64,000 nucleotides of DNA from Puniceicoccus vermicola (GTDB lineage: Bacteria > Verrucomicrobiota > Verrucomicrobiia > Opitutales > Puniceicoccaceae): assembly GCF_014230055.1 (NCBI RefSeq), contig NZ_JACHVA010000080.1:1-64000 (forward strand), in the 5' to 3' direction. The translations under genes and the position numbers were made by a program. Under the pieces are notes generated by a model, which did no database searches, was not told the origin of the DNA, and saw only the letters and a list, made by a program, of their open reading frames with translations. Shown here one piece after another: positions 1 to 4,776 of this stretch. The number at the start of each line of letters is the position of its first letter. Positions within the stretch are counted from its first letter, which is position 1.

Positions 1-69
1 GTAGATGCTATGAGCGGATCCGAGGGATCTGCTTTTCTTGGGGCCTCTTCTTTCGGATACTAAACAGGC

Positions 70-88
70 CCGGGTTAAGAGGACCCGG
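70..88 (+). other. Hairpin upstream of the IS110 transposase
   Basis: The arms ccgggt (70-75) and acccgg (83-88) pair across a 7-nt loop, about 37 nt before the transposase start. It may be part of the element's left end or a structure limiting translation. The function is inferred. Confidence 0.35.
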
Positions 89-124
89 ACCTGAAAAAAT
101 GAACCTGAAAGAAAGATTCAAAAA

Positions 125-1219
125 ATGAAGTTATACATGGCGCTGGAACTGAGCAATACTAAATGGAAGCTGGCCTTCTCGACGGGAGAGAAGATACGGC
201 TGATCACGATCGAGGCTCGTGATCAGTTGGCCTTTCAATCGGCCCTGAAGGCGACTCGGGACAAGTGGCAGCTAGGCGAAGACATTGAGGTTTTCAGTGT
301 CTACGAAGCGGGCCGGGACGGTTTCTGGATCCACCGCTGGCTGGAGGGGTTGGGGATCAACAACGTCATCGTTGATCCCGCCAGCATTGAGGTGAACCGC
401 CGCAAACGCCGAGCCAAGACTGACCGCCTGGACGCCAAGGCCTTGCTGCGTCAGCTGATTCGCTACCACGGCGGTGAGCATACGCTCTGGTCTGTCGTGC
501 GCGTGCCGAGCGTGGAGCAGGAAGACCTGCGTCGGCGCGAGCGAGAGATCAAGCGACTGAAGAAGGAGATCGGTGCGGGCACAGCCCGGATCAAAAGCCT
601 GCTTGTTTTGCATGGACTTCGCCTCGATTCACTTAGCAAGCTCGATACACGGCTCGATTCGCTGCTCGGTTGGGACAACCGCCCCCTCCCGGAACATATA
701 CGCAGCGAGATCGCCCGCGAATACGAACGCGTGGAGTTTGCCCGCACCCAACTCAAGGCTCTGGAACGTGCGCGGACTGCCCGAATCGCAAAGCCCCAAA
801 CAAAGGCCGAGCGACAGGCCCACAAGCTCACCCGGCTCAAGGCCGTTGGCGTCATCAGCGCCATGACCTTAAGCGAGGAGTTCTTCAGCTGGCGAGAGTT
901 CCGCAACGTCCGGCAAGTCGGCGCCTGCGCCGGTCTGGATGGCTCCCCCTACGACAGCGGCGACAGCAAGAACGAACAAGGCATCAGTAAAGCCGGCAAT
1001 GCCAAGGTCCGGGCCCTGATGATCGAGCTGGCCTGGTCGTGGCTGAGGAACCAACCCCAGTCGGATCTGGCCAAATGGTTCGACAACAACTTCGCCAGGG
1101 GAAAACGCAGCCGAAGAATCGGCATCGTCGCTCTGGCGCGCAAGCTACTGGTGGCTCTGTGGAAGTACTTGGAAAAAGACGAACTCCCCGCTGGGGCTCT
1201 CCTCAAAGAGACTGCCTGA
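125..1219 (+). CDS. IS110-family transposase (DEDD-type, RuvC-like N-domain plus Transposase_20)
   Basis: This 364-aa protein has the length and two-domain plan of IS110/IS1111 recombinases. The N-terminal RuvC-like half has E61 in YEAGRDG and D100/D103 in TDRLDA. The C-terminal Transposase_20 half (about 235-320) contains GISKAGN, with S288 in the position of the family's nucleophilic serine. The first acidic residue, normally Asp in a G/A-I-D-V/L-S context, is Glu here (E8 in ALELS). The frame is intact from an ATG, so the element may still be active. Known members excise and insert as circular intermediates guided by an element-encoded RNA. It is followed by about 290 bp of non-coding, hairpin-rich DNA. 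Confidence 0.93.
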   Translation: MKLYMALELSNTKWKLAFSTGEKIRLITIEARDQLAFQSALKATRDKWQLGEDIEVFSVYEAGRDGFWIHRWLEGLGINNVIVDPASIEVNRRKRRAKTDRLDAKALLRQLIRYHGGEHTLWSVVRVPSVEQEDLRRREREIKRLKKEIGAGTARIKSLLVLHGLRLDSLSKLDTRLDSLLGWDNRPLPEHIRSEIAREYERVEFARTQLKALERARTARIAKPQTKAERQAHKLTRLKAVGVISAMTLSEEFFSWREFRNVRQVGACAGLDGSPYDSGDSKNEQGISKAGNAKVRALMIELAWSWLRNQPQSDLAKWFDNNFARGKRSRRIGIVALARKLLVALWKYLEKDELPAGALLKETA

Positions 1220-1510
1220 GAACTTTTACCAATCAAACTATCTGAGCTTTATCTGACTTTGGTGGATTGATGGCCCGTTTCGATGCTGGAGATGGTAAAT
1301 CCCACTCGTTCTTGTAGATTGGCGTCATCATGAAACCGCATATTCAAGCCTGCGATCAGGCGTATTTGGCATCAGGTGACCGGCTAGACCGGCACGGATA
1401 GAAGTTGGTCCCGAGGGCTACATAGCCCCGGATACTCAAATGCGGAAACCACTAAGATCAATCGCTCAAAATAAACATAACATTATCGCGATTATGACTT
1501 GACCCATAAA
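1220..1510 (+). ncRNA. Possible IS110/IS1111 guide (bridge/seek) RNA region, non-coding right flank
   Basis: There is no plausible gene in these ~290 bases between the transposase stop and the truncated HerA-like gene. Two perfect short hairpins are visible: gcctg-cgat-caggc at 1348-1361 and gggcta-ca-tagccc at 1415-1428. IS1111-type elements encode a structured guide RNA downstream of the transposase gene, so this is the natural candidate region. The limits and strand of the RNA cannot be fixed by eye, and no covariance evidence is available. Confidence 0.35.
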
Positions 1511-3262
1511 TCACCATAGAAGCATCGACCGTATGTTGCTACCAGCTATAGCTTCTAGATAGTCTAATCCTGTTTGGTCTACACTACGGAAGCATATCAG
1601 ATTCTCGCACTGAGATAATGCGCTTTTTGCGACCACGGCAGTGCGCTGCGATATCAGTATTACAGATAGTCCATACTTCCGAATCTGCATCATCAACAAT
1701 CCAATTTTAAATGCACTATCTCGACCTGGAGCATTGAATCCTAATCCCGCTGGCTCAGGAATAAATTGGTGCGCCTCATCGATGATCACCACGCGTGAAC
1801 GAGGTGTTCCAGTTTTATATTCAGCAATAGCCTCTTTAATTAAGTATTCGAGAAAAGCCAGAGCCCTATCAGCAGCAACCTCTCCATGTTTTGGTTCGAA
1901 TACTGAGAGCCCCGGCTTCTTTAAATCCGTATTAGAGTCGTAAGGAGTTAGTCCCTTCTTGGAAACATATTCTCCAGTTTGATCAAGAATTGTTACCCAC
2001 CGATCCTGAGAGAGTTCCCTCGCTAATCGAGTCGCGAATGTCGACTTTCCCATCTTTGTCATTCCCAAGATTGCAAGATGGCCTTCAGCAGCAATTCTAC
2101 AATCCAGCGTAATGGGGATGTCAGTTCCAATTACCTTCCCAATTTCGATATTATTTTCAGGAATAGAGATTCTGCCTTCCAAGTCTATTGCACTGCTAGG
2201 CAAAACTCGAGCACCAGGAGGAGGAACCCACCTGTGCGCGCTCATTCGCATCGCATTATAATTGAAGACACCTAGTTGATTGGCCGACGCGTTCACAAGC
2301 AGATGGGACCCACCTTTAACATCTCGACGGTCAATGTAGGCTGATGACAATTGGTATAGAATCGGTGGATTCGGAGCATTTTGCGAGACGACAACCACAT
2401 CCCCTATTTCCATACTTTGCACAGAGGTAAATTTTAGAGTTTTATCTGTCGAACCTTGGTCCACGGATCCTACAGGAGTCAAAAGGCCGTCCGGGCTCTC
2501 GGAAACTGAGATAGTCTGTCCTGTAACTACTGATTCACATGCTTGGGAGTCAGGGACGTGTATTTGGCCCCAAGTATCAGCAACTCTCCGAATGCGATGA
2601 ATCATTACGCCATCGGTGTTCACTTTTGAACTTCGAATAATCACTGGCTTGCCTGTTGCGGGTAGATCAGGCGCAGAAATAAGGAGTGAAGACGGCCCAA
2701 CCATACCTTCCACGATACATAATGCCTCACCATCACGACTGACGGACCAGAGTGACTGCCAATTTACTCTGCCTAAGACGAGAATAGTAACCCAAACTGC
2801 AATGATAGCCCAAAAATCCGACTGGTTGGTGGGAAATTCTTCCATTGCTGCGAGAACAAAGACAACTGAGTAAATTATCCTCGCACTTGCTAATTGAGAT
2901 AACGAGCGAAATGAATTCGCGATTCCGCTATACTTACTGTTTCTGCGACCTGCCCCAAGAAAAAGGGCCAGAGTTGCAAGGATTGCCGCTACAGCAAAGA
3001 TTGTCCCAAATATGCTCCACCCAAATACAGTAGTCGTTTTTGGTGTATTAAGCGCTAGCAGCCCAAAGAAAATAGTATTAACAATGACGTCTGTTGGCCG
3101 TGAGTAATAGGGCTCTAACAACTGAGGATTGATAATAACCGAGAGAAGCCCTGCGATAAACCAAGTTTCCTTTGTGAATAAATCACCAGTGATGTAAAAG
3201 CAGAGGCCTACAATTATCGCGAATTGAATTAAAGAAAGGGATAGCCTCCAGCGTATATTCAT
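1511..3262 (-). CDS. Membrane-anchored HerA/DUF87-like P-loop ATPase, C-terminus probably truncated
   Basis: 583 aa. Residues about 8-165 contain several hydrophobic segments (near 10-27, 33-47, 58-72, 79-103, 128-140, 150-165), so the N-terminus is membrane-embedded. Residues 175-335 resemble a HAS-barrel-like beta domain. Residues 385-583 are a HerA-type ATPase with Walker A GMTKMGKST (400-408), Walker B VVIIDEA (491-497) and a sensor ISQR (537-540). HerA proteins are hexameric DNA translocases; here the enzyme would be membrane-tethered. The frame ends abruptly after GSNIRSMLLW, where relatives continue for several tens of residues, exactly where IS110-flank DNA begins. The gene is A/T-richer than its neighbours and reads away from the divergent integron integrase, as a gene cassette would. 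A defence role is possible but not shown. Confidence 0.7.
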   Translation of the reverse strand: MNIRWRLSLSLIQFAIIVGLCFYITGDLFTKETWFIAGLLSVIINPQLLEPYYSRPTDVIVNTIFFGLLALNTPKTTTVFGWSIFGTIFAVAAILATLALFLGAGRRNSKYSGIANSFRSLSQLASARIIYSVVFVLAAMEEFPTNQSDFWAIIAVWVTILVLGRVNWQSLWSVSRDGEALCIVEGMVGPSSLLISAPDLPATGKPVIIRSSKVNTDGVMIHRIRRVADTWGQIHVPDSQACESVVTGQTISVSESPDGLLTPVGSVDQGSTDKTLKFTSVQSMEIGDVVVVSQNAPNPPILYQLSSAYIDRRDVKGGSHLLVNASANQLGVFNYNAMRMSAHRWVPPPGARVLPSSAIDLEGRISIPENNIEIGKVIGTDIPITLDCRIAAEGHLAILGMTKMGKSTFATRLARELSQDRWVTILDQTGEYVSKKGLTPYDSNTDLKKPGLSVFEPKHGEVAADRALAFLEYLIKEAIAEYKTGTPRSRVVIIDEAHQFIPEPAGLGFNAPGRDSAFKIGLLMMQIRKYGLSVILISQRTAVVAKSALSQCENLICFRSVDQTGLDYLEAIAGSNIRSMLLW

Positions 3263-3408
3263 TTTCTTAAATTATTCACACAACGTATTAGTACTTCATT
3301 CTGAATATCCCCTCCATTCATTGACGCGTCAAGATCATTTCGGAGCAAAATGTCTTGAAACCTTATGGAATAACATTCTAGTAATTGAGATATTCATATT
3401 TCAATATC
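3263..3408. promoter_or_regulatory. Divergent intergenic region between the HerA-like gene and intI; possible attI / core site
   Basis: This 146-bp A/T-rich gap separates the divergent starts. Read toward the HerA-like gene, the minus strand has GTTGTGT at 3278-3284, one mismatch from the integron core GTTRRRY, about 15 nt before the HerA-like ATG. That is the spacing expected between a cassette junction and its first gene. Such a short motif can occur by chance, so this is a candidate only. Confidence 0.3.
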
Positions 3409-4776
3409 ATGATTCGTCTGTCCAAAGAAACTTTTCATCGGTTTCAGATCCGATTGGGGGAGCTTGGTGTCTCCGATCGTGGGAGACTCCATTATGTGAA
3501 GTGGGTGCGGTATTACCTGGACTTTGAGGCAAAGTATGGGAGTGGGGTTCCGAAGGCGGAAATATTGCCCCAATTTCTGGCCAAGCTGAGGAGCAAGGGT
3601 CAGTCGTCTCGTCTCTGTGAGCAGGCGCGTCACGCGGTGGAGGTCTATCTTGCCATGGGTGCAGGATCGGATCGGGAAGGGGCGGAAGGTATGTCGGGCG
3701 AGACGAGGGTTGTTGAAGAGCCGTCCCCCGAGGAGGTTGAAGTGGGCGGCCCGACCGACGGGCTTTCCCGATATGGTCGTTCACCGGATTCGGGGTCGGG
3801 ATCTCGCGGTGAGTGGGATCAGTTGGTGAAAATGATGGGAGGAGAGATCCAGCGGCGGAATTACTCATCAGCCACTTTGAGTAGTTATGTGGCTTGGGTG
3901 CGTCGTTTTGGTCAGTTCACGCGTTTCATGCCGACAGAGAAGGTGTCGGACGAGGAGGCCAGGGACTTTTTGACAAATTTGGCGGTGGAAGGGCGGGTGG
4001 TCGCTTCGACGCAGAATCAGGCGTTTAATGCGCTCCTGTTCCTGTTTCGCCATGTGTTGAAGCGAGACTATGAGATGGAAGACCGGGTCGTCCGCGCGAA
4101 AACCTCCAAGTATATTCCAACCGTGCTGACGAGGCCGGAGGTGGATGCAGTGCTGAGGAACCTGAAGTTCCCTTATGATTTGATCGTTTCCATGCTCTAC
4201 GGCTGCGGTCTTCGCCTATCCGAGTGTCTGGAGTTGCGGGTCGGGGATCTCGATTTTTCCGAGGATTTAGTGATCGTTCATGATGGAAAGGGGCAGAAGG
4301 ATCGATCCGTGCCGCTCCCGAAAAAACTGAGGCCCGAGATCGAAAGTCAGGTGCGGCGAGTTGAAAAATTGCTGAAAAAAGATTTGGAGCACCCTGATTT
4401 CGGAGGGGCTTTTATGCCGAAGACGATGGGGAGGCGACGAGCAGAGCGGGAGGCGAAGACCTTGCCTCGGCAATGGCTTTTCCCGGCCAAAGGGCTCACT
4501 CTGGTCCCCGATGAGGGAACGTATCGCCGCTACCACAATTTTAATCAATATTTGAGCAAGGCGATCTATGCTGCGGTAAAAAAAGCAAAGATTTCGAAAC
4601 GGGTAACCCCTCACACCTTCCGCCACAGTTTTGCGAGTCATCTCTTGGCGGCCAACGTGGATTTGCGGACGATCCAGGAGTTATTGGGACATGCCGATAT
4701 CAAGACGACGATGATCTACACCCACACGGTGAAAAGCCAAACGAAGAAAGAGAGGGTGAGCCCGCTGGATTTATAA
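3409..4776 (+). CDS. intI: Integron integrase (IntI-like tyrosine recombinase) with extra N-terminal domain
   Basis: The ATG at 3409 gives 455 aa; an upstream TTG (3385) would add 8 residues. The tyrosine-recombinase set is complete: R269 (GCGLRLSE), K297 (KDRSVPL), H402-x-x-R405 (TPHTFRHSF), H428 (LLGHAD) and Y437 (MIYTH). Residues about 327-377 form an insert absent from XerC/D that ends in FPAKGLTLVPDEGTYRRYH, matching the integron-integrase-specific patch, and the C-terminus ends SPLDL as in IntI proteins. Class 1 IntI has about 337 aa; the excess is an N-terminal SAM-like segment (about 1-82) joined by an acidic linker to the usual SAM-like domain (136-222). It recombines attC with attI. 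No attC array lies downstream; scpB follows after a repeat-rich gap. Confidence 0.9.
   Translation: MIRLSKETFHRFQIRLGELGVSDRGRLHYVKWVRYYLDFEAKYGSGVPKAEILPQFLAKLRSKGQSSRLCEQARHAVEVYLAMGAGSDREGAEGMSGETRVVEEPSPEEVEVGGPTDGLSRYGRSPDSGSGSRGEWDQLVKMMGGEIQRRNYSSATLSSYVAWVRRFGQFTRFMPTEKVSDEEARDFLTNLAVEGRVVASTQNQAFNALLFLFRHVLKRDYEMEDRVVRAKTSKYIPTVLTRPEVDAVLRNLKFPYDLIVSMLYGCGLRLSECLELRVGDLDFSEDLVIVHDGKGQKDRSVPLPKKLRPEIESQVRRVEKLLKKDLEHPDFGGAFMPKTMGRRRAEREAKTLPRQWLFPAKGLTLVPDEGTYRRYHNFNQYLSKAIYAAVKKAKISKRVTPHTFRHSFASHLLAANVDLRTIQELLGHADIKTTMIYTHTVKSQTKKERVSPLDL

Follow-up and report, generated by a model that had tools for sequence, protein, structure and literature searches.

The first 4,776 bases of contig NZ_JACHVA010000080.1 (C80) of Puniceicoccus vermicola raise the question of whether a HerA-like ATPase gene that reads away from an integron integrase is a captured gene cassette or an ordinary chromosomal neighbour. 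A preliminary description of the window (here, the whole 64,000-nucleotide stretch of DNA that was analysed) had favoured a first cassette at attI and had proposed that the gene might be a novel cassette-borne defence gene. As set out below, a chromosomal integron very probably has its proximal end at C80 1-4776, with the HerA-like gene as its captured first cassette, later split by an insertion sequence (IS).

The integrase and its divergent neighbour

The gene at 3409-4776 (+), within a longest frame from 3385, encodes a 455-aa integron integrase (IntI) that matches the TIGR02249 profile with 335.8 bits (cut-off 265). Structure comparison gave 2a3v, the VchIntIA of Vibrio cholerae, as its best fold match, and residues 147-442 align to this protein; through the integron-specific insert only one residue is gapped. 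The catalytic residues R269, H402, R405, H428 and Y437 are all present and are invariant in the 9 IntI of the genus that were compared (9/9). The insert and the SPLDL end, both read earlier from the DNA alone, are thus where they were said to be, and 3409-4776 is a true IntI, one of five full copies in this genome. At its N-terminus, residues 2-93 are predicted to form an extra helical domain of four helices, with a disordered linker behind it. An N-terminal extension ahead of the usual core-binding domain is visible in the window (3409-3800) and in the IntI of loci L045-L052.

Divergent from intI lies a HerA-like ORF at 1511-3262 (-), whose product matches DUF87 (PF01935) with 46 bits (cut-off 23.2), carries Walker A (GMTKMGKST), Walker B (IIDEAHQF) and SQR motifs, and begins with several hydrophobic helices that are predicted to lie in the membrane. 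The divergent layout given in the preliminary description stood up, but 1511 is not the native end of the gene: the last residues of the frame (LLW*) are encoded by an IS at 3-1522, which truncates it. The native part, 1521-3262 (-), makes up the 5' 95% of the gene (580 of 608 codons); the rest is on contig C77. At 45% G+C this native part falls below all 573 windows of equal length sampled elsewhere in the 64 kb, so that the earlier remark on a gene richer in A/T than its surroundings was well founded.

The insertion sequence at the 3' end of the HerA-like gene

The element at 3-1522 (+) is of the IS110/IS1111 type and sits in the HerA-like gene at GT-AG-CATCGA, with its transposase encoded at 125-1219 (+; NF033542, 160.7 bits, cut-off 140). 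Bases 1-1500 of the window recur identically at eight contig ends of the 143-contig assembly, and these ends sort as flanks of one element, four to its left and four to its right, which gives four IS copies. Among the four left flanks, the C-terminus of the HerA-like protein is found on C77 only (tblastn E 1e-13); C18 had initially been suspected of carrying this tail, and tblastn favoured C77. Rejoining the flanks by script yields a 608-aa protein that is colinear, without a gap, with an Acidobacteriota homologue (locus L042) to which it is 79% identical. We infer that C80 and C77 are physically adjacent via the collapsed IS repeat. The gene loses its last 28 codons through the insertion, and because these residues are gone the copy in the present genome is probably inactive.

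Joining the IS flanks gives the target as GTAGCATCGA, and all four copies sit at GTAG/CATCGA. Downstream of the transposase gene is a 303-nt non-coding region (1220-1522) with the small hairpins GGGCTACATAGCCCC and GCCTGCGATCAGGC, which might be part of a target-finding RNA. A DEDD transposase and a long downstream non-coding region are features shared with the IS1111 family, including ISPa11 and ISKpn4, the latter of which targets attC. ISPa11 uses REP sequences as its target (PMC11187229), and a palindromic REP-like repeat, CATCGAGCCTTGCTCGATG, likewise lies on the right flank of two other IS copies of the present genome, whereas the window copy landed inside a cassette gene, in neither a REP nor an attC. 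We had considered an element aimed at attC, as some IS1111 members are; this was ruled out by the insertion within coding sequence.

Cassette boundaries and attC sites

A model-free scan for attC of the window alone returned no site, because the 3' end of the HerA-like gene is off the contig. On C77 an attC lies just after the HerA stop codon (1635-1707 of locus L053). It was detected first by a model-free scan and then by a covariance model, built from four sites and in part from the HerA attC itself, under which it scores 83 bits (E about 1e-21). The covariance check proposed in the preliminary description therefore does find an attC at the 3' end of the gene, on C77, beyond the window. The R'' box of this site, CACACAAC, is the exact complement (8/8) of GTTGTGTG, the core that stands at 3284-3277 (-) 14 nt ahead of the HerA ATG, where a near-core GTTGTGT had been noted about 15 nt before the start. 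This core, G^TTGTGTG (3277-3284, -), marks the 5' boundary of the cassette and the attI x attC junction.

Complementarity between the two ends of a cassette is a general rule in these integrons. Over 24 cassettes, R'' matched the 5' core of its own cassette at a mean of 5.9 of 7 positions, compared with a match of 4.2 of 7 between the boxes within one attC site, which come from different cassettes. After the HerA attC the array on C77 goes on with a 148-aa cassette with an attC of its own (77 bits) and then a DUF4279 gene. The genome as a whole holds 30 attC sites at E<=0.001, clustered in arrays, and none was found in five genomes of the order that have no close IntI match.

The attC stem itself is maintained by compensatory change. 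Over 60 distinct sites, 15 of its 18 pairs are changed on both sides, with a covariation score of 0.497 versus 0.139 in shuffles, and compensatory cells number 203, versus 69 in shuffles and between 19 and 41 with the partner slid; the sites had been aligned by fitting to the model, a procedure that favours the structure, and the difference is nevertheless large. An Rfam search gave no match. In the Acidobacteriota locus L042 (1020-1200) a CACACAAC R'' box follows the stop codon of the HerA homologue at nearly the same distance as in C77. No complete attC was recognised there with the R1 model, and L042 lends support, no more, to the idea that the two loci have a cassette boundary in common.

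attI, candidate promoter and first cassettes in related integrons

Orthologous intI genes (61-70% identity) were found in five genomes from other families of the same order (G089, G071, G057, G174 and G024). Upstream of each, just before the first cassette, is a conserved block that ends in TGAYCTAATAACTTG, with small variants, and with which the proximal attI block of the window, TGAAGTACTAATACG (3284-3298, -), can be aligned. The intI-proximal DNA of the window scored above 300 of 300 shuffles against four of these relatives and above 289 against the fifth, the window attI being the most diverged of the six. The alignment across relatives that had been suggested earlier thus reveals a block ahead of the junction, conserved in six orthologous integrons, which we regard as the putative recombination site. 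Beside it, a consensus scan placed a candidate cassette promoter Pc (TTGACG-17-GATATT) at 3304-3332 (-), reading into the HerA-like gene. A CTTGA or TTTGA box occupies the same position in all six relatives, and to judge from its sequence this element would act as Pc.

The first genes behind the orthologous intI are all different, and in G174 none was seen in the short stretch available. The preliminary description had allowed for the same HerA gene standing beside intI in all relatives, with no turnover of cassettes; what was seen is the opposite, with other first genes, or none, in the five genomes and the HerA-like gene in its own genome only. No homologue was found in the 176 other genomes of the order (1/177). 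A search of the phylum that started from a Chloroflexi homologue likewise found none in 386 other genomes (1/387), and plasmid, phage and viral collections contained no close relative. The HerA cassette is acquired from outside. On the cassette side of intI in the G071 integron (L114), the first cassette is followed by an ORF that by eye resembles a TIR domain.

Proposed history of the locus

We propose that IntI would have inserted the single-gene HerA cassette at attI through an attI x attC recombination event, which would have placed it first in the array, behind the Pc-like promoter, and would imply past IntI activity at the present site. An IS1111-like element would later have inserted at a chance match to GTAGCATCGA close to the gene's 3' end, cutting off its last codons and separating intI from the remaining array (HerA attC, 148-aa cassette and DUF4279 gene), which would now be represented by C77. 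If so, an insertion sequence can both silence a first-position cassette and sever an array from its integrase. The locus also presents a large membrane ATPase gene (about 1.9 kb) carried as an integron cassette, with its close relative in another phylum.

Two other accounts of the locus were weighed against this one. The HerA-like gene could be an ordinary, laterally acquired chromosomal gene beside intI, with the core and the attC unrelated to it or belonging to other cassettes; the window on its own, with no attC, would suit such a gene, and by itself a GTTGTGT close to a start codon is weak evidence of a cassette. Against this are the attC directly after the HerA stop on C77, the perfect complementarity of the two ends, the conserved attI immediately upstream and the variable first genes of the relatives, and we hold this account to be very improbable. 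It is also improbable, if a little less remote, that the break in the gene is an assembly artefact, in which collapse of the IS repeat would conceal an intact HerA or other flank joins in the cell. The four IS copies are indeed collapsed, with contig ends falling inside them, and such an assembly could contain a mixture of strains; yet a single left flank encodes the HerA C-terminus, an uninterrupted HerA contig was not found, and the insertion matches the target core seen for the other copies. The first-cassette reading of the preliminary description is therefore the one we retain, on the strength of an attC at the true 3' end, a conserved attI and varied first genes.

As in the Vibrio chromosomal integrons (VchIntIA, 2a3v), this integron combines a tyrosine recombinase bearing the integron-specific insert with divergent cassettes, an attI, and folded attC sites in which the R and L boxes are paired and one base is extrahelical. 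It differs from them in that a single genome harbours five intI genes along with several short arrays, in the extra N-terminal helical domain of the window IntI, and in that about a third of the cores are GAT/ATC and not GTT/AAC.

Possible roles of the HerA-like protein

The nearest folds to a model of the protein are HerA-NurA, DUF4297-HerA and SIR2-HerA (Foldseek E 1e-12 to 1e-8), the model being of modest confidence (mean pLDDT 66), and there is weak similarity to the PADLOC HerA and Mad8 families. The protein is a divergent relative of the anti-phage HerA proteins (SIR2-HerA and DUF4297-HerA): it has the HerA-type ATPase core in common with them, and differs in an identity of about 15%, in its predicted N-terminal membrane helices and in being a single gene without a partner enzyme. 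Our guess is that the intact protein would form a membrane-tethered ring ATPase and move DNA, or hold on to it, at the membrane.

Work by Darracq et al. (2025) and by Getz et al. (2025), cited here through PMC12444791 and PMC12409362, describes Vibrio integron cassettes as rich in anti-phage genes and often phage-protective. Because Vibrio cassettes often protect against phages, a defence role is plausible here too, and the intact protein might be a single-gene, membrane-anchored anti-phage protein, a tentative reading with which the similarity to PADLOC HerA and Mad8 and the SIR2-HerA and DUF4297-HerA folds agree. It is opposed by the modest confidence of the model and by the neighbourhood: no SIR2, DUF4297 or NurA partner was seen beside the window gene or its L043 and L044 homologues, no defence-island context was found for the window gene, and none of the neighbours of the L043 and L044 homologues is a defence gene from a known system. 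The earlier suggestion of a novel defence gene is accordingly not upheld by what was found at the locus. A membrane-tethered DNA translocase with a role in repair, in replication conflict or in DNA transfer is, like a defence role, less likely than not, by a slightly wider margin. Such a role would fit the SSB-tip-like ends of two relatives and a UvrD-type helicase 28 bp downstream of the Chloroflexi homologue (L043), the sole suggestive neighbour, but the tip is absent from the window/C77 and L042 proteins, and a neighbour conserved across the homologues was looked for and not found. The two tip-like ends read EDEIPF (L043:11850-11902) and EDDIPF (L044:11860-11917).

Two possible core classes of attC

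According to a published description (PMC2727003), no sequence of attC is conserved other than the AAC and GTT triplets. Among 60 attC sites of the order, all found with one model, ATC stands in R'' in 22 and GAT in R' in 16, and in other families GAT or ATC sites make up 14 of 42 per box. In 19 of 22 cases a cassette has the same core class at both of its ends (Fisher p 0.001), whereas the two boxes within one attC site are independent in class (p 0.76). These counts suggest two interchangeable classes of attC core. We consider it an evenly balanced proposition that G^TT and G^AT cassettes in the same arrays both serve the integrases of this order as substrates for recombination, with no requirement for the AAC/GTT triplet, and the extra N-terminal helical, core-binding-like domain of IntI could be linked to a relaxed core specificity. 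Cores of two classes offer a direct way to test what IntI reads in attC. GAT/ATC cores occur in many attC arrays, L118, L121, L069 and L113 among them, and in several families of the order.
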